Of a stretch of 64,000 nucleotides of DNA, positions 2,257 to 14,325 are shown one piece after another. The DNA is from Albibacterium bauzanense (GTDB taxonomy: Bacteria; Bacteroidota; Bacteroidia; Sphingobacteriales; Sphingobacteriaceae): contig NZ_SMGO01000001.1 in the NCBI RefSeq assembly GCF_004339765.1, forward strand, positions 744,001-808,000, read 5' to 3'. The notes beneath the pieces are model-generated. The model was given only the letters and a program-made list of their open reading frames with translations. It was not told the origin of the DNA and made no database searches. The position numbers and the translations under genes were made by a program. Position 1 is the stretch's first letter; each line of letters opens with the position of its first letter.

Positions 2257-2664
2257 TTATTTCAGTGCTTCACCTTTTTTAAACACCCAATAAGTTTGTA
2301 AGGTATAATTGAACCCAAGTGAAACTAGAATATCTGTCATAATCCTGCTTATCTTATAATCAATTCTCAACCAATTGGTAAACAGGTAGGTACCTGCAGA
2401 TTTCAAGAACACGCTACCAACAACAACCACAACAAACTTTAATAATTGGCCTTTTACTTCCAGCTTATCCGCACGGTAAGTCCATTTTCTATTAATAGAA
2501 AAATTAACAATGGCACCAATAAAGCCGCTAATAACAATTGAGATCGTATAATGAATATGGATTATCTCGGTACAGATTATCATGATTGAATAATCTACCA
2601 GCCCTCCAATGAAAGCTGATGCCTGAGCTTTTATGAAAACAAGAAAGGAAGATTTCTTCTTCAA
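2257..2664 (-). CDS. GtrA family membrane protein
   Basis: A 135-aa protein with four predicted membrane helices and the GtrA pattern: FIGGLVDYSIMI in helix 1, GFIGAIVNFSINRKWTY after helix 2, and a C-terminal FNYTLQTYWVFKKG. The family is thought to take part in moving polyprenyl-phosphate-linked sugars across the inner membrane for glycolipid or surface-glycan modification. It follows the CDP-alcohol phosphotransferase gene by 30 bp on the same strand, which fits a shared envelope-lipid role. The exact substrate cannot be read from sequence. Confidence 0.85.
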   Translation of the reverse strand: MKKKSSFLVFIKAQASAFIGGLVDYSIMIICTEIIHIHYTISIVISGFIGAIVNFSINRKWTYRADKLEVKGQLLKFVVVVVGSVFLKSAGTYLFTNWLRIDYKISRIMTDILVSLGFNYTLQTYWVFKKGEALK

Positions 2665-2694
2665 AATAACTATTTAAAATAAACAGGTATATTC

Positions 2695-3405
2695 TTAATC
2701 AATAAGCTTATTTAATTCCTTAACCTTTCTATCTGCAATATCCCGGTCATCACCCAATTTCAAGAGTTTTCGGGTATCAATAATATTAATGATAAAGAGA
2801 ATAACACAAATACCACCAACGAAAAAGTGAATTGTATTAAAGAATAACATTTCAATCAAAATCATTAAAGCGATAACGATCCGTATCTCTGTAGGCCCCA
2901 TCAAGCCGGCATCAATGGTATAAACATCTGTAATCCGGTATCGAAGCTGTGATATGATCATTGCCCAGCCATATAGCACTACAAAGAGAAAAGCAAGCAC
3001 CTCATAACCGTCTTTGGCATAAAAGAAGTAACCCATACCGATCAATACCGTACCCACCCAGTCCATGACAATATCAAGCGAAAAGCCATACCATTTCCTC
3101 GGTATATTCCTATAATAAGCAATTCTGCCATCGAGCGAATCTCCAAACCAGTTAATAAAAAGTCCGGCTACGCCCAATAAAAGAAAAAGCTGACTACCAT
3201 AATATGCCAGTATAAAACCCAGCATAACCAGTAATGAACCAAACAGGCCAATAGCCGTAAGCCTATTAGGTGTTATAAATGCAGGTATTCTCGCAACCAG
3301 AAAAGAGATGAATGTTTGCTCCGGGCCACTCAAAATATTAGTCCGTTTTCTATCTTTAAATAGCTTTTTTTTCTTTGCCCTTTCAGCCACTTCTAAATCT
3401 GTCAT
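2695..3405 (-). CDS. CDP-alcohol phosphatidyltransferase family protein
   Basis: Integral membrane enzyme family that transfers a phosphatidyl group from a CDP-alcohol to an acceptor such as an inositol, glycerol phosphate or serine. The catalytic motif lies near residues 88-114: DSLDG, then A, then GFSLD and IVMD. All four aspartates and both glycines are in place. The Arg that normally follows Ala (DGxxAR) is Tyr here. The protein is 236 aa with about six membrane segments. It is first in a minus-strand group with GtrA. The acceptor alcohol is unknown. Confidence 0.82.
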   Translation of the reverse strand: MTDLEVAERAKKKKLFKDRKRTNILSGPEQTFISFLVARIPAFITPNRLTAIGLFGSLLVMLGFILAYYGSQLFLLLGVAGLFINWFGDSLDGRIAYYRNIPRKWYGFSLDIVMDWVGTVLIGMGYFFYAKDGYEVLAFLFVVLYGWAMIISQLRYRITDVYTIDAGLMGPTEIRIVIALMILIEMLFFNTIHFFVGGICVILFIINIIDTRKLLKLGDDRDIADRKVKELNKLID

Positions 3406-3461
3406 TGTTTCATCCTAATTTTGCCTGCAAATATACACAAACAGAAGTATCTACAATTACA

Positions 3462-3495
3462 ACTAATAAACTAGTTGCGAAACTAGGACATTAGT
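3462..3495. promoter_or_regulatory. Paired operator for the BlaI-type repressor
   Basis: Two ACTA-N6-TAGT palindromes lie in tandem at 3462-3475 and 3482-3495, with centres exactly 20 bp apart (about two helical turns). Between them the inner halves form a perfect CTAGTT-GCGA-AACTAG inverted repeat at 3471-3486. They overlap the predicted -33 box and sit between the divergent phosphotransferase and BlaI genes. Assignment to BlaI is an inference from position and dyad geometry. Confidence 0.6.
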
Positions 3496-3505
3496 ATTAT
3501 ATTTG
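3475..3505 (+). promoter_or_regulatory. Predicted Bacteroidota promoter for the BlaI-M56 operon
   Basis: TTG at 3475-3477, 20 nt, then TATATTTG at 3498-3505. This matches the Bacteroidota consensus (TTTG, 19-21 nt, TAnnTTTG). The -33 box lies inside the double palindrome, so a bound repressor would block it. Confidence 0.6.
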
Positions 3506-3600
3506 ATTATATGAAATATCCATGTAGCACAGGCTGCACAAACACGGATGAAAACACATTGGATATTCCATATGACCATTAAAGGTCAAATTATTTACAT

Positions 3601-3984
3601 ATGAAACACACCATGGAAATCAAAGAATTAACAAGAGCCGAAGAGGAAATTATGCAAAAGTTATGGGTACTGGAAAAAGCTTTTGTAAAAGATATTATTA
3701 AAGAGCTTCCTGAACCTAAACCAGCTTATAATACGGTGTCTACCATTATCAGAATCTTAGAAACGAAAGGTTTTGTAGCTCATGAAAGCTTCGGAAAAAG
3801 CCACCGTTACTATCCACTTGTTTTAAAAGATGCCTATAAAAACTTTGCATCAGGCAAGCTGATATCTTCTTATTTCGACAATTCTGCACAAAACATGCTC
3901 TCCTTCTTTCTTAAAAAAGAAAAGCTGAATGTCAAAGAAATGGATGAGATCCTTAAAATAATTGAAGACGCAAAAAAGAAATAA
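3601..3984 (+). CDS. BlaI/MecI/CopY family transcriptional repressor
   Basis: A 127-aa winged-helix repressor of the penicillinase-repressor family. The N-terminal segment LTRAEEEIMQKLWVLEKAFV and PKPAYNTVSTIIRILETKGF are the typical DNA-binding helices. The C-terminal part is the dimerisation region that BlaR1-type peptidases cleave. It lies 20 bp before an M56 peptidase gene, the standard pairing. Met5 (3613) is an alternative start. The double palindrome upstream suggests autoregulation. Actual inducer and target genes are not evident; no beta-lactamase is nearby. Confidence 0.9.
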   Translation: MKHTMEIKELTRAEEEIMQKLWVLEKAFVKDIIKELPEPKPAYNTVSTIIRILETKGFVAHESFGKSHRYYPLVLKDAYKNFASGKLISSYFDNSAQNMLSFFLKKEKLNVKEMDEILKIIEDAKKK

Positions 3985-4004
3985 ACAATTAAAACCCCAA
4001 GGTT

Positions 4005-5264
4005 ATGGAATATCTATTATGGGCAAATGCCTACCTGGCAATCTTTTACGGATTCTACTGGTTCTTTTTACGAAAAGAAACCTTCTTTCAATTAAACAGA
4101 TTGTATTTGATAGGCAGTACGTTATTTTCCTTCATTATTCCCCTCTTAGATCTGAAAATATTTAAAGCCAGTTCAGAATTATTCTCTACCGTTCTTCCTA
4201 TTTCTGCAGTACTTCCTTTAGCCGAAATTAATCCGGCTACTGTATCTTACAGCAATTCCGAAAGCGGTTTATCAGCCTTAACTACCATCTATACTATCGG
4301 TTGCTCACTATCCATTCTATGGCTTTTATACCGACTTTTCATCTTTAAAAAGAACTTAAATAAACCGGCTTCAGGCGATGCCTACTCCTTTCTTAACTTT
4401 GTAAGGGTTGACCCGAATATAGATGGATATGCTAAAGTTGTAGCGCATGAGGATATTCATGCTCAAGAATACCATAGCCTGGATATCTTATTTTTTGAAT
4501 TCATCCAAATCATCAATTGGTTTAACCCACTCGTTTATTTTCTGCTTCGATCTGTCAAGCTCAATCATGAATACATTGCAGATGAAAAAGCTACTAGCAC
4601 CAATGACGACCGAATTAATTATGCGAATTTATTAGTAAGTCACGCTTTTTCTACTCCCGTACATTCTATCATGAACAATTTCTTTAATAAACCATTTTTA
4701 AAAAGCAGGGTTACGATGTTATTTAAAAACAAATCAAAGAAATCAGTATTGATACGGTTCTCACTTCTAATTCCAGTCATGCTAATAGCATTCGCTCTTC
4801 AATCTGGGAAATCGATTGAAACAAGCGCAAAACCTCTTGTCACCCTAAATAACCCTGTAACATCGCCCTTAAATACTATAGAAGAAACTAGCGGAGAGAA
4901 TTCAAAAGCAACCAATGAACCTACTGACACACACATTTTCACATCTGTTGAAGAGCCTCCTGAACCTATTGGCGGATTAGAAGAGTTCTATAAATACATA
5001 GGTGAAAACGCCAACTTTTCAAAAGAAGCCTATCCAGCTAGCGACAGTAACTCGAATGTTAGAGTACTCGTTAGCTTTATTGTGGAAACAGATGGTTCTC
5101 TATCAACTATAAAAAGTCTGCGAGATCCTGGTCATGGAACCTTTGAAGAAGTAAAACGCTTATTAGAAAACGCACCGAAATGGAAACCAGGCATACAAAA
5201 CACAAGACCAGTCCGCGTACAATTTACCTTACCTATACAACTTAACAGCTTGGCTAAATCTTAA
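4005..5264 (+). CDS. BlaR1-like M56 metallopeptidase with C-terminal TonB domain
   Basis: Inner-membrane sensor protease of 419 aa. About four membrane helices flank the zinc motif HEDIH (residues 148-152) with the further M56 signature HSLDILFFE. The last 90 residues (about 330-415) match the TonB C-terminal fold, including VLVSFIVETDGSLS and FTLPIQL. The penicillin-binding sensor domain of staphylococcal BlaR1 is absent; Bacteroidota often replace it with a TonB domain. Role by analogy: senses an envelope signal and inactivates the BlaI partner encoded 20 bp upstream. The signal is unknown. Confidence 0.88.
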   Translation: MEYLLWANAYLAIFYGFYWFFLRKETFFQLNRLYLIGSTLFSFIIPLLDLKIFKASSELFSTVLPISAVLPLAEINPATVSYSNSESGLSALTTIYTIGCSLSILWLLYRLFIFKKNLNKPASGDAYSFLNFVRVDPNIDGYAKVVAHEDIHAQEYHSLDILFFEFIQIINWFNPLVYFLLRSVKLNHEYIADEKATSTNDDRINYANLLVSHAFSTPVHSIMNNFFNKPFLKSRVTMLFKNKSKKSVLIRFSLLIPVMLIAFALQSGKSIETSAKPLVTLNNPVTSPLNTIEETSGENSKATNEPTDTHIFTSVEEPPEPIGGLEEFYKYIGENANFSKEAYPASDSNSNVRVLVSFIVETDGSLSTIKSLRDPGHGTFEEVKRLLENAPKWKPGIQNTRPVRVQFTLPIQLNSLAKS

Positions 5265-9185: not shown

Positions 9186-9650
9186 TTAAGAGAGTAGTTT
9201 TTGACGAAGTAAAAACTCTAACTGGGAATTAGTAATTGAGAGTTCTTTATTTTCATTCATGATTTCAATCTTTTTAAGATAAACATCATAGGCCTCTTCA
9301 ATAATTCTTGACATTTCCTTATCATCCCAGGGCTTGTTCAAATAATGATAGATATTTCCTTTGTTTACGGCTGCTATGATAGCAGACATATCTGTATAGC
9401 CCGTTAAAAGGATACGAATGGGGGCCGGATGTGTTTCAATAACCTTTTCAAGAAACTCTACCCCGGTCATATTGGGCATACGCTGATCTGTAATAACAAT
9501 ATGTATTTCGTTTTTATCCAGAATCTCCAATCCTTCAGCACCACTAATAGCTGTAAAAATATTATACTTGGATCGATACACAGCGCGAAAAGACAATAGA
9601 TTAATCATCTCATCGTCTACATATAATATTGATATTACCTTCTCTGCCAT
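9186..9650 (-). CDS. Response regulator, receiver domain with short C-terminal helix
   Basis: A 154-aa CheY-like receiver. Acidic pair DDE follows SILYV, the phospho-acceptor Asp is in VITDQRMPN (about residue 55), Thr is in LLTGYTD, and Lys is in YLNKPWDDKEM. The NKPWDDKEM end of the receiver is typical of RpfG-like and 'hybrid' receivers. After the receiver there are only about 30 residues, probably helical, with no DNA-binding or enzymatic domain. It is divergent from the operon carrying a 7TMR-DISM kinase (11693-13858), its most likely partner; the pairing is an inference. Confidence 0.88.
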   Translation of the reverse strand: MAEKVISILYVDDEMINLLSFRAVYRSKYNIFTAISGAEGLEILDKNEIHIVITDQRMPNMTGVEFLEKVIETHPAPIRILLTGYTDMSAIIAAVNKGNIYHYLNKPWDDKEMSRIIEEAYDVYLKKIEIMNENKELSITNSQLEFLLRQKLLS

Positions 9651-9840
9651 AAATATATTCCTTCTAAAAACAATTCACTTCCTAAAGTTAATACTAAATT
9701 AATGTTTTTTGCAAAAAAACTTAATGAAAGGGTCGCTATTTTGCAGGAACCCCAATTATATTAAATTAATAAGTTCATGACAAAGAACTGTTTTCATAGA
9801 AAAAGAAAGTATCTTTATTGATACTAAAACCTATTCTAAC

Positions 9841-10977
9841 GTGCACAAAACAATTAACCAATTACATTCAATCTATAAACCTTTGTTTTATAGGCTGAAT
9901 AACCTTCACGATGAAGAAGCTTTTCAAGAGCTATTACGTTCTACCGACAATATAAAACAATACGATACAATTTACAATCAACTTACCGAGCTCATAAAAT
10001 TATCAAATCCAACAGAAAGATTGAGTAAAGAGGCTATGGATAATTTGATAAAAGATCATGTTCAAATACGGGATCTAAGCAAATACGGTGTTTGGGTGTA
10101 CTATCCCTGGTCTAATAATTTAGTCCACTTATTAGACGAAGAAGAGTTTATTAAGGTGCGAACCAATAGAAACATGTATAAAATAGCTCCGGAAGAGATT
10201 GAGCTTTTAAAAGGCAAGAAGATAGGAATCATCGGACTATCGGTAGGACAAAGTATTGCGCTTACGCTTGCAATGGAACGTACTTGTGGTGCACTTCATT
10301 TAGCCGACTTTGACGACATTGAGTTAAGTAATATGAACCGACTAAGAGTAGGCGTGCAGGATTTGGGGATGAGCAAAGTAGTTATTGCTGCGCGACAGAT
10401 TGCAGAATTAGATCCTTTTGTTAAAGTAAGCTGCTTTATGGAAGGTTTAACGAGCGATAATATTGCAAGCTTCTTTACTGACAATGGTTCGATCGATATT
10501 TTGGTAGAAGAGTGCGACGGACTGGAGATTAAAGTATTAAGCAGGATTATGGCTAAGAAATATCAAATACCAGTTGTGATGGATACCAACGACCGCGGAA
10601 TGCTGGATGTAGAACGGTTTGATTTGGAGCCAGATAGACCTATCTTTCATGGCAGAACAAAAGAACTTGAAAATTTAACACCTGAAGAATTAATTGCTAA
10701 ATTTGCAGGCCTGGCTGTTGAACATAAAATATCTTTTCTGGCACAAATCATCGGTATTGAAAACGTTTCTTCAAAAATGAAGCAATCCTTAGCTAATATG
10801 AATAAAACGATTGTAGGTTGGCCGCAATTAGCATCGGCTGTAACCTTAGGTGGAGCAATGGTGACTGATACTTGCAGAAGAATTTTATTGGATCATTTTA
10901 AAGATTCAGGAAGATATTTCGTTGATTTTGACGAACTGATAACAGCAGATAACAATAAAGAAAACCAACCTTCATAA
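9841..10977 (+). CDS. E1/ThiF-like adenylating enzyme, resembles N-terminal half of Rv1355c/MoeY
   Basis: A 378-aa protein with an N-terminal helical region (about 1-90), a segment YGVWVYYPWSNNLVHLL, and a ThiF/E1 Rossmann fold from residue 128. It has the nucleotide loop GIIGLSVG (129-136), DFDD (156-159), Arg167 in NMNR and Lys179, matching the ATP-binding residues of MoeB/ThiF. The usual catalytic Cys and CxxC zinc motifs were not found. Such enzymes adenylate a carboxylate, typically a protein or peptide C-terminus. Mycobacterial Rv1355c carries a nitroreductase domain after this part; it is missing here. GTG start; no upstream Met fits. Twelve bases separate it from the GNAT gene. Substrate unknown. 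Confidence 0.72.
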   Translation: MHKTINQLHSIYKPLFYRLNNLHDEEAFQELLRSTDNIKQYDTIYNQLTELIKLSNPTERLSKEAMDNLIKDHVQIRDLSKYGVWVYYPWSNNLVHLLDEEEFIKVRTNRNMYKIAPEEIELLKGKKIGIIGLSVGQSIALTLAMERTCGALHLADFDDIELSNMNRLRVGVQDLGMSKVVIAARQIAELDPFVKVSCFMEGLTSDNIASFFTDNGSIDILVEECDGLEIKVLSRIMAKKYQIPVVMDTNDRGMLDVERFDLEPDRPIFHGRTKELENLTPEELIAKFAGLAVEHKISFLAQIIGIENVSSKMKQSLANMNKTIVGWPQLASAVTLGGAMVTDTCRRILLDHFKDSGRYFVDFDELITADNNKENQPS

Positions 10978-10988
10978 ATTTTCTAAAA

Positions 10989-11696
10989 ATGATTCAGATA
11001 AGAACCTTTAGAGCCCCGGATGATCCTGAAGCTTGTGAGAAATTTATTGTCGGTCATAAAAAACTGCTTGAGATTTTTGGAATAACCAAGATTACATCCA
11101 ATAGGCAAGAGTGGGTGGATGACTATAATACGAACGTTATTTTAGTAGAAGATCAAAAGACGAAAATAGTATATGGGGGTGCGAGATTACAGGTTGTTAC
11201 AGGGCACTATAGTTTACCTATTGAAGATGCATTAGGAAAATATGATGATGGGATTTTTAAGATGGTGAAAGAGGATCAGCTATCGGGCGGCACCTGTGAA
11301 CTTTGCGGCCTTTGGAACTCCAGAGAGGTTGCAGGAATGGGAATTGGGAGTTATATCCTATCTCGTGTAGGAGCGGCCATTGCATCCCAACTATCTTTAA
11401 AAAGCATCTTTGTTTTATGTGCGCCGATTACAGTAAGGATGGGAAAACGAGTGGGTGCAGTTGTTGAGGAATCTTTGGGAGATAAGGGACTTTTTTACTA
11501 TCCAAAGGATGATTTGATTGCGACTGCTATGCGATTAAGGAATATTTATGATTTAAGTACGGCAGATCCAACAGAGCGAGAAAAGATTATTTCTCTGCGA
11601 AATGATCCTCATCAATTTATAATGGAAAAAGGCCCCAAAGGCACCTTTGAAGTAGAATACAACTTAAAGATACCTAATCTAGAAAAGCAAATATGA
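10989..11696 (+). CDS. GNAT-fold acyltransferase, resembles LuxI/FeeM autoinducer or N-acyl amino acid synthases
   Basis: A 235-aa protein. Visible features: N-terminal IQIRTFRAPDD, then a strand IVYGGARLQVVTGHYSLP, and an acetyl/acyl-donor loop region NSREVAGMGIGSYILSRVG followed by VRMGKRVGAVVEE. The layout (V-G-G-A-R-L, E...W...R, then a helix and R-x-G) recalls FeeM- and LuxI-type synthases more than ordinary GNATs. A CELC pair lies at residues 103-106. It overlaps the kinase start by four bases (ATGA, 11693-11696), implying translational coupling. Donor and acceptor are unknown; the assignment is motif-based. Confidence 0.6.
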   Translation: MIQIRTFRAPDDPEACEKFIVGHKKLLEIFGITKITSNRQEWVDDYNTNVILVEDQKTKIVYGGARLQVVTGHYSLPIEDALGKYDDGIFKMVKEDQLSGGTCELCGLWNSREVAGMGIGSYILSRVGAAIASQLSLKSIFVLCAPITVRMGKRVGAVVEESLGDKGLFYYPKDDLIATAMRLRNIYDLSTADPTEREKIISLRNDPHQFIMEKGPKGTFEVEYNLKIPNLEKQI

Positions 11697-13858
11697 GTAT
11701 TAAAAAATATTATCTGATACTAGTATTGCTACTCTTTAATAGCGGTGTTGGTTATGCTAGCGATGGTAGAGTCGATTATATTTTTGATAATGAGCAAGTA
11801 CTTTTCGGAATAGATAAAGGTGTTGGTGTATACATTGATGAAACAAAAGAGTTATCAATAACAGATGTTGTTAAAAAACAGTTCCTCTTAGATATTGATT
11901 CAAATCTCAATTTTGGAATTACAGACTCCAAGGTCTGGGTTAAATTTCAAATCAAGAATGAAACGCAAGAGGAAAATCTCTTTTTAATGGCTTCGCAACC
12001 TTCTATTGATAAGATTAGCCTTTATACTCAAGACCTTTCAGGTAAGTGGGATAGTTTGGAATTAGGGGAATATAAAACTTATAAAGAACGTTTTAGAGAA
12101 AGCCCTAATTACATTTTTCCTGTAAAAATTCCATATAATACTTCCCGTTATTTTTACATCAGTATCCAGTCGAAGGATCAGCTGCAGACTGCTTTTTATT
12201 TGGGTAATGAATCAACAATATCTCATTGGGAATCAACAAGAGCTATTATAACCGGGATCTATATTGGAATGATCCTTATTATGGCTTTTTACCATATTTT
12301 TATTTATTATACCGTAAAAAACGTCAGCTACATCTATTACATTTTCTTTATTTTATGTGTTGGATTGGTTCAGATAAATTTTCATGGATTCGCATTCAAA
12401 TACCTGTGGCCTGATACGCCCTTCTTGGCATTAAATAGCACTTTTTTAGTCCCGATGCTATCGGGTTTGTCGACTGCCTTCTTCGTCAAAAAGTTTTTAC
12501 ATACGCGTTCTTTTACACCGAAACTAGATACTGGCATCAACATCTATATCTTTTTATGTATTAGTGCCACTATTATAGGAATGGCAGGCTTTAATGTTTT
12601 TGGAGTAAAAATACTTCAACTTATTGCTTTGGCAGGTGCAATATATGCGATGTTTGTTGCTTTTGTTATTATGCGAATGAATTACAGGCCGGCTAAATTT
12701 TTCTTAATAGCCTTTGCTTTGTTCTTTGTTTGTATTATCATTTTCGTTTTAACAAACTTCACGATCCTTATCCCCTATAGCACATTCTCTCCTTACATTT
12801 TGATGCTGGGATCTGTTATTCAAATTGTACTGCTTTCTTTTGCTCTAGCTGATGAAATAAATACGTATAGAAAAGAGAAGGAAGCTTCACAAACAGAGGC
12901 TTTAAATACTTTAAAAGAAAACGAAAGAATTATCAGGGAACAAAATGCTTTCCTTGAAAAGGAAGTCAATAAAAGAACGTTGGATCTGAGCAAATCAAAC
13001 GATGATCTTCAGAAGTCACTGCTTGATTTAAAACAGGCACAGACTCAATTGATAGAGACAGAAAAGCTGGCTTCTCTGGGTATGTTAACTGCAGGTATTG
13101 CACACGAAATTAACAACCCGATTAATTTTGTTACAGCCAGCATAACTCCTCTAAGAAGGGATATTGACCAGACCTTTCAAGCTCTTACTGAAATGGAACG
13201 AATTAGTTTATCTTCATCATCCGTATTTGATAAAAAGGATGATATAAGTAAAGTTAAAGAGGATTTAGAGATCGAATATATAAAAGAGGAAATTCAATCT
13301 CTTTTAATGGGAATTGAGGAAGGGGCTAACAGAACTGCAGGGATTGTGAAGAGCTTGCGTATCTTTTCTCGCGTTGATGAAGACGATTTGAAAATGGCCG
13401 ACATTAACTTAGGTATGAAATCAACCTTGGTGATTCTTGATAGCTCATTGAAAGATACGATTAATATAAAGACAAACTATGGCAAATTACCTCTCATAGA
13501 ATGTTATCCGGGCAAGCTTAATCAAGTGTTTTTAAATTTGCTAACAAATGCGTCTTATTCTGTAAAAAAGAAATTTGGCAGCAAGCATGGAGCCGAATTA
13601 GAAGTAAATACTTATCAAGAAGGCGAATTTGTTTATATCCAGGTTAAGGACAATGGCTTTGGCATTGATGAGGCGATACGCGGTAAAATTTTTGATCCTT
13701 TCTTTACAACGAAGGATGTTGGAGAAGGAACGGGCCTTGGTTTATCGATTGTTTATCAAACTATATTAAAGCATCAAGGAGAAATTATCGTCAACTCTGT
13801 ACTTGGAGAAGGCTCTGAGTTTACGGTAAAGATACCTGTTAAACAAAGTGATATTTAA
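11693..13858 (+). CDS. 7TMR-DISM sensor histidine kinase
   Basis: A 721-aa membrane receptor kinase. Order: signal peptide, extracellular 7TMR-DISMED2-like beta-sandwich (about 30-175; [20 protein letters not shown]), seven membrane helices (about 185-395), a coiled coil (about 400-460), a HisKA box with phospho-acceptor His471 in GIAHEINNP, and a HATPase domain with DNGFGIDE and [10 protein letters not shown]. The DISMED2 domain is thought to bind carbohydrates or other small ligands. There is no receiver fused to it; the single-domain receiver across the divergent promoter is a candidate. Coupled by ATGA overlap to the acyltransferase gene. Confidence 0.92.
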
Positions 13859-13860
13859 AC

Positions 13861-14325
13861 ATGTATTTAACATTATTGACCTTACATTCCTTAGTTCGAT
13901 GGTTTGTATTGATAAGTTTAATTGTTTCTATTTACCTCGCCTACAGAGGATGGTTAAAGAATAAGCCTTATACTAAATCTGATAGAATAATAAGGATTAT
14001 CACGGTTTCTATTGCTCATACACAGCTAATTATCGGTTTATGGCTTTATTATATTAGTCCGATAGTTGATTATTTTCTTCATAACTTTAAGGAGAGCATA
14101 CATCAAACTCAACTTAGATTTTTTGGTATGGAGCATATAACGATGATGCTCATAGCTATGACGCTTATAACTGCAGGTGCAGGAATAGCCCGAAGAAAGA
14201 AGGTTGATAAAGACAAGTTTAAGTCAACAGCTATCTGGTATTCTATAGCGCTATTAATTATTTTCACATCCATCCCTTGGGAATTTTCTCCGTTTACCAG
14301 TAGGCCGTATTTTAGGTTTTTTTGA
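13861..14325 (+). CDS. Small four-helix membrane protein (cytochrome b-like)
   Basis: A 154-aa protein with four predicted membrane helices and several membrane-embedded His: LHSLVRW in helix 1, IAHTQLIIGLW in helix 2, GMEHITMMLIAM in helix 3. The spacing could bind haem, and homologues in Bacteroidota are often labelled cytochrome B, but haem binding is not demonstrated by sequence. It begins two bases after the kinase stop codon, so it belongs to the E1-GNAT-kinase operon. Confidence 0.65.
   Translation: MYLTLLTLHSLVRWFVLISLIVSIYLAYRGWLKNKPYTKSDRIIRIITVSIAHTQLIIGLWLYYISPIVDYFLHNFKESIHQTQLRFFGMEHITMMLIAMTLITAGAGIARRKKVDKDKFKSTAIWYSIALLIIFTSIPWEFSPFTSRPYFRFF

Follow-up and report, generated by a model that had tools for sequence, protein, structure and literature searches.

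N-acyl amino acid derivatives are made by the TrzAS, TyzACB and OxzAB enzymes of Mycobacterium, Rhodococcus and Pseudoalteromonas (PMC12856293, PMC10404671), which comprise an N-acyltransferase resembling FeeM and the acyl homoserine lactone (AHL) synthases, encoded beside a ThiF-type cyclase. In TrzS (Rv1355c), the ThiF cyclase is fused to a flavin oxidase, and together with the acyltransferase TrzA it makes N-acyl tryptazolones (PMC12856293); for equivalent chemistry, TyzACB and OxzAB use tyrosine or phenylalanine (PMC10404671). Here we describe a locus of Albibacterium bauzanense (contig NZ_SMGO01000001.1 of assembly GCF_004339765.1) in which a GNAT-fold protein and a ThiF protein of the same family adjoin a 7TMR-DISM sensor histidine kinase and a divergently encoded single-domain receiver (RR1). 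The stretch analyzed, 64,000 nt at contig positions 744,001 to 808,000, is called the window below. The locus is probably a self-sensing, quorum-sensing-like system, in which the two enzymes would build a fatty-acyl amino acid signal and the adjacent kinase would detect it.

With TrzAS, TyzACB and OxzAB the locus shares the acyltransferase beside a same-family cyclase, and the ThiF-oxidase fusion is also found in relatives of the locus. However, the window genome lacks the flavin oxidase, the locus adds a kinase and receivers, and the tailoring step is exchangeable with methyltransferases. Because there is no oxidase, we treat the locus as a variant of the oxazolone pathways and not as a member. 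In PhcBSRQ of Ralstonia (PMC8578825), a signal enzyme is likewise encoded beside a sensor kinase; most relatives of the window locus also have a PhcR-like receiver (REC)-kinase and a PhcQ-like REC protein without a DNA-binding domain, and some use a methyltransferase, like PhcB. Here, in contrast, an N-acyltransferase is added, the sensor is of the 7TMR-DISM type, and the window uses a cyclase and has no REC-kinase. The resemblance to PhcB, PhcS, PhcR and PhcQ is one of architecture only. In ComQXP(A) of Bacillus, the kinase sensor varies together with the synthesis genes, and the 5' part of comP co-varies among pherotypes. The rest of that locus is conserved (PMC4408185), and its signal is a lipidated peptide, whereas the signal here would be an acyl amino acid derivative. 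The LuxI and FeeM acyl-amino-acid synthases are among the closest folds of the GNAT (Z 14–16, at a sequence identity of only about 10–12%), but the set contains no LuxR-type receptor, and the membrane kinase would take that role. For the methyltransferase-type relatives, the expected products are N-acyl amino acid methyl esters (NAMEs), for which the synthase genes and the receptor are unknown. The original prediction had named no known system with this gene set; indeed, the open-access literature yielded the enzymes, but no described quorum-sensing system with the set. The locus is best read as one that would work like the Phc, Cqs and Com systems.

The ThiF protein matches the Pfam ThiF family (E = 1.9e-18) and positions 5–347 of the 722 positions of the NCBIfam model NF005901 for the Rv1355c family (E = 3e-133), and shares 43% of 288 aligned aa with a TrzS homologue of Rhodococcus, itself an Rv1355c-family protein. 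Its adenylation motif is intact: C225-D226 and the GLSVG loop are invariant among 27 homologues, and Asp226 aligns with the Asp of the ThiF-fold enzyme TcdA, at the position where enzymes of this fold have their ATP-binding Asp. These matches identify the protein as the putative counterpart of the N-terminal, cyclase portion of oxazolone synthases of the Rv1355c/TrzS family. The flavin-oxidase half is missing, and no oxidase-domain relative was found in the window's genome; 11 of the 60 genomes searched (the window's own and relatives) do have a match. Thus, the generic activating or conjugating E1 enzyme that had been proposed gives way to a known lipid-cyclase clade. In one genome, the ThiF-oxidase is represented by two overlapping open reading frames (ORFs) of 545 and 227 aa (L056:9858-12166), as the result of a frameshift or because the gene is split. 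Streptomyces plasmids also encode members of this ThiF family (L078:6965-8763 and L080:5164-8078). Their neighbor is either a beta-ketoacyl-ACP synthase III or a GNAT of an unrelated kind (Acetyltransf_3), and the annotation shows no oxidase adjacent to the ThiF genes; these loci appear to be further pathways built on this cyclase. The GNAT that adjoins ThiF there is a different one and was rejected as a homologue of the window GNAT, homologues of which were not found in a plasmid search. On a Rhodococcus plasmid (L077:3829-8031), homologues of TrzA and TrzS adjoin a GGDEF protein, and the published trzAS locus likewise adjoins cyclic di-GMP genes, a hint that oxazolones are linked to signaling in Actinomycetota, too.

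From its sequence, the window GNAT matched neither a family in the libraries nor a protein of the PDB. In a structure search with its AlphaFold2 model (mean predicted local distance difference test score 90), FeeM ranked first (Z 15.8, 3.0 A, 176 residues), and the AHL synthases LasI, RpaI and BjaI reached Z 15.1, 14.7 and 14.5, with two ordinary GNATs close behind (Z 15.0 and 14.6). The number of residues aligned to the model was 168–195 for FeeM and the AHL synthases versus about 138–164 for ordinary GNATs, some of which had Z 15.0. FeeM and BjaI are also the published structural matches for TyzA (PMC10404671). A profile of 26 GNATs matched two TrzA homologues (from Rhodococcus and Nocardia) with a score of 42.4 over 163 columns, compared with a maximum of 22.2 for 100 column-shuffled profiles; in single-sequence comparisons of TrzA with the GNAT the signal was too weak, and the more diverse profile was needed. 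Judged by this profile match, the GNAT is a predicted distant homologue of the TrzA N-acyltransferase. With the ThiF protein in the TrzS family, the pair would correspond to TrzA plus the cyclase of TrzS, without the desaturase, and the activities of both enzymes are inferred from these relationships. The original prediction had noted motifs recalling FeeM and LuxI; the fold search leans the same way. A housekeeping acetyltransferase was rejected, given the lack of a sequence match to a solved structure and the ranking of FeeM and the AHL synthase LasI first by fold.

The kinase exceeds the curated Pfam cut-offs for 7TMR-DISM_7TM (4e-42), 7TMR-DISMED2 (7e-26) and HATPase_c (1e-20), with a weak HisKA match. 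RR1 is a receiver (Response_reg, 3.8e-18) with an intact phosphoacceptor D55, as well as T83 and K106, and has no DNA-binding domain. Its C-terminal tail, LEFLLRQKLLS in the window, is conserved in an alignment of 47 relatives in the general form LEFxLRQxLLS. The best NCBIfam match of RR1 is the receiver of NosR (NF053512). In 43 of 48 loci there is, in addition, a REC-HisKA-HATPase protein of ~361 aa (RR2), and many loci also have a third small receiver (RR3). Because the best family of RR2 (L021:11847-12926) is the NosR receiver as well, RR1 and RR2 may be paralogues.

Our survey covered 49 loci, with duplicates removed, in about nine families and at least two classes of Bacteroidota. The GNAT is carried by 30 of the 60 genomes, and by 13 of the 395 genomes of a phylum-wide draw, one of them in another class. 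A 7TMR-DISM kinase adjoins the GNAT in all 48 loci with enough contig, and RR1 is present at most of the surveyed loci. The set of receiver, ThiF, GNAT and kinase recurs across about nine families, so that it is not a chance assembly, and the proposed conservation of the gene set is borne out by this neighborhood survey.

The tailoring position of the locus is occupied by different genes: ThiF alone in 25 loci, a ThiF-oxidase fusion of ~770 aa in 13, a class I S-adenosylmethionine (SAM) methyltransferase in eight, and an integral-membrane carboxyl methyltransferase of the ICMT family in two. Gene order varies as well: in loci in which the GNAT comes first, the tailoring gene directly precedes the kinase, and in 22 loci the GNAT lies between the two. 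All these alternatives can act on a carboxylate, which ThiF closes onto an amide and ICMT esterifies; formation of a carboxyl ester by the soluble SAM methyltransferase would fit this scheme. The common logic would be an N-acyl amino acid with its acid capped, yielding a molecule that is neutral and membrane-permeant, as methyl 3-hydroxymyristate and the acyl homoserine lactones are.

The sensor part of the kinase follows the type of tailoring enzyme. For 44 dereplicated loci, we compared the kinases piecewise, taking the extracellular (ecto), the 7TM and the kinase portions separately. After removal of the divergence of the kinase domain, the ecto and 7TM parts were more diverged across than within tailoring types (permutation p 0.001 and 0 of 2000, respectively), whereas the divergence of the GNAT did not follow tailoring type in this test (p 0.22, 44 loci). 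Because permutation does not fully remove relatedness, trees were added. On the 7TM tree, the eight methyltransferase loci form a single clade (Shimodaira-Hasegawa-like approximate likelihood ratio test, SH-aLRT, 99.9), a clade that is rejected on the kinase domain (approximately unbiased, AU, test p 8e-40) and on the GNAT (AU p 4e-5). The 7TM tree requires seven changes of tailoring type and the ecto tree nine, compared with 15 each for the kinase domain and the GNAT and about 19.9 after shuffling. No methyltransferase locus has a ThiF-type 7TM, nor is there a case of the reverse. Two loci illustrate the point: in a distant family, the methyltransferase locus L062 has 7TM neighbors exclusively of the methyltransferase type, whereas the closest relatives of its GNAT and its kinase domain are of ThiF types; the ThiF locus L034 has a GNAT that shares 82% identity with the one in a methyltransferase locus, but the nearest relatives of its 7TM are ThiF types. 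In an outgroup tree, one row of which (L144) had been read on the wrong strand, a single clade of the system sensors was not rejected. Taken together, the sensor part, rather than the kinase domain or the acyltransferase, tracks the tailoring type. This co-segregation supports a match of specificity between enzyme and sensor, as far as can be read from sequences, but physical linkage may account for some of it.

Exchange has also occurred in place. The methyltransferase locus of Parapedobacter indicus (L030) shares its chromosomal site with two ThiF loci (L042 and L049) that carry one other genus code and are probably from Parapedobacter. Between L030 and these two, the flanks (~85% identity), RR1 (86–87%), RR2 (78–84%) and the kinase domain (76–77%) are conserved, whereas the GNATs are 43% identical, the tailoring genes are non-homologous, and identity in the sensor is mostly 18–38% per 40 residues, then rises towards the linker. 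For comparison, L042 and L049, of the same type and at the same site, are 75% identical in the GNAT and 69% in the 7TM. Similarly, the kinase domains of three loci that occupy one site in another family (f15) are 80–84% identical, but one of these loci shares only 44–46% of the GNAT and 36–38% of the 7TM with the other two. By analogy, the in-place swap of synthase, tailoring gene and sensor between conserved flanks in Parapedobacter is the pattern expected of quorum-sensing specificity cassettes, and such a pattern is seen in the ComQXP polymorphism (PMC4408185). Within one genus-level group, a single chromosomal site (L094, L096 and L098) carries two divergent synthase/7TM alleles with the same tailoring type, which is reminiscent of pherotypes.

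In the proposed mechanism, the GNAT would acylate an amino acid, and the ThiF protein, by analogy with the chemistry of TrzS and TyzB, would use ATP to adenylate the N-acyl amino acid at its carboxylate and then close it to a 5(4H)-oxazolone. Given the lack of a flavin oxidase, the oxazolone formed here would be saturated. The neutral product would cross or partition into membranes and, as the co-evolution suggests, would be recognized by the 7TM part, perhaps also by DISMED2, of the adjacent kinase, which would then alter the phosphorylation of RR1. Since relatives have methyltransferases, or ThiF together with an oxidase, in place of the ThiF step, each with a matched sensor, the carboxylate cap appears to set the identity of the signal. 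The earlier proposal of a molecule made by the two enzymes and detected by the kinase thus gains support from the conserved linkage, the predicted homology to TrzA and TrzS, and the co-segregation of tailoring enzyme and 7TM, and the chemistry can be named more exactly than before, with an N-acyl amino acid presumably converted to an oxazolone. More broadly, the loci might represent a modular pheromone system of Bacteroidota, with an N-acyl amino acid core and interchangeable, non-homologous caps (cyclised, cyclised and desaturated, or methyl-esterified), each read by its own 7TM; cap enzyme and sensor would be exchanged as a specificity cassette, and the kinase and receiver output would stay constant. 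We consider this wider reading to be evenly balanced.

Several observations weigh against the self-sensing reading. RR2 and RR3 are absent at the window, and RR2 is not encoded elsewhere in its genome, where the best full-length match is only 26% identical and belongs to a different family. The core of the proposed gene set recurs, but the window has lost the REC-HisKA-HATPase protein that most relatives also have, and no output regulator was identified for the window system. One congener has no GNAT. For the 22 loci with the GNAT in between, all trees require four changes and do not discriminate, and among the ThiF loci alone the partial correlations are similar for the 7TM and the kinase domain, so that the 7TM is not singled out, which weakens the case. 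Linked transfer could also account for some of the co-segregation, since in many loci the tailoring gene directly adjoins the kinase gene at its 5' end, which encodes the sensor. Finally, no saturated cyclised product was detected in vivo in strains with TrzAS; the product of the window enzymes, made without an oxidase, may therefore be labile or different.

The enzymes could instead make a secreted or membrane lipid, such as an oxazolone, an antimicrobial or a stress compound, with the kinase sensing some other ligand and controlling production. Biosynthetic genes commonly have regulators adjacent, the physiological role of the oxazolones is unsettled and a stress role has been proposed, and N-acyl tyrosine derivatives can be antimicrobial (PMC12856293). 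However, the sensor part, and not the whole kinase, tracks the tailoring enzyme, and the receivers have no DNA-binding domain with which to regulate the adjacent operon directly; we regard this explanation as rather unlikely. Improbable, too, is that the co-segregation follows from adjacency alone, with one recombination tract carrying the tailoring gene together with the 5' end of the kinase gene. The gene order of the GNAT-first loci and the lack of discrimination where the GNAT intervenes fit this case, but none of the 44 loci pairs a methyltransferase with a ThiF-type 7TM or the reverse. Moreover, the tracts repeatedly end near the linker between sensor and kinase in distant families (L030, L034 and L062), not randomly, and in L030 the exchange extends to the GNAT, beyond the tailoring gene.

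The ThiF protein shares the E1 fold, and weak PADLOC E1-E2 matches (best 6e-8) might suggest ubiquitin-like conjugation or an anti-phage E1 system. Yet the TrzS family fits the ThiF protein far better, no E2, ubiquitin-like or JAB gene was seen in the set, and methyltransferases replace ThiF in the relatives. We therefore rejected E1-E2 and Bil-type conjugation, and consider any system of this kind highly improbable. The reading favored here remains that of a signal made by the two enzymes and sensed by the adjacent kinase.

All five originally predicted ORFs were found where they had been placed, and the family calls agree, so that the original observation stands (Table 1). The 4 bp ATGA overlap of the GNAT and kinase genes and the 2 bp gap between the kinase and the small membrane protein likewise stand, and the gap between ThiF and GNAT is 11 bp, not 12 bp. 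However, the small membrane protein, which had been counted among the set, does not belong there. Homologues are present in 45 of the 60 genomes, including genomes without the GNAT, and its orthologues in relatives are unlinked to the cassette. In a congener (G001), the orthologue of the window block 2257-5264 is close to it, and no cassette lies between the two. We thus rejected it as a part of the system and judged it to be an accidental downstream neighbor that is perhaps co-transcribed. Within that block, downstream of a gene of BlaI size, the window encodes at 4005-5264 a protein resembling M56 peptidases with a TonB-like C-terminal part (domains named by eye); in the congener (L130), this block is the ancestral neighbor of the small membrane protein.

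Table 1. Positions in the window of the genes, domains and key codons of the putative signaling locus.
Feature	Position	Strand	Basis or remark
RR1, single-domain receiver, 154 aa	9186-9650	-	Pfam PF00072; divergently oriented
Intergenic region, 190 bp, between divergent RR1 and operon	9651-9840		Presumed (predicted) promoters of both
ThiF/E1-like cyclase (putative tailoring enzyme), 378 aa, GTG start	9841-10977	+	NF005901
Codon of Asp226, C-D motif of adenylation site	10516-10518	+	Invariant in 27 homologues
N-acyl amino acid synthase-like GNAT, 235 aa	10989-11696	+	AlphaFold2 fold match, TrzA profile match
Codon of Glu104 in strand motif CELCGLW of the GNAT	11298-11300	+	Invariant in 26 diverse homologues
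Sensor histidine kinase of the 7TMR-DISM type (721 aa), putative receptor	11693-13858	+	PF07696, PF07695, PF02518
Extracellular 7TMR-DISMED2 domain of the kinase	11819-12202	+	PF07696, residues 43-170
7TM sensor domain of the kinase	12242-12853	+	PF07695, residues 184-387
Codon of phosphoacceptor His471, HEINNP motif	13103-13105	+	Motif position, sequence
HATPase_c catalytic domain of the kinase	13514-13843	+	PF02518, residues 608-717
Small membrane protein, 4 transmembrane segments	13861-14325	+	Judged outside the system

The function of the N-acyl oxazolones has been called a major unresolved question (PMC12856293). In dozens of genera, loci of the kind described here tie oxazolone enzymes to a candidate receptor, and function thereby becomes directly testable by addition of the product and readout of the kinase. 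If the reading as a modular pheromone system is true, the oxazolone lipids would gain their first receptor and function, and the Bacteroidota would gain a native small-molecule quorum-sensing system. To our knowledge, the ligands of 7TMR-DISM kinases are mostly unknown, and the cassette exchange would provide natural matched pairs of enzyme and sensor for mapping the ligand specificity of these kinases.

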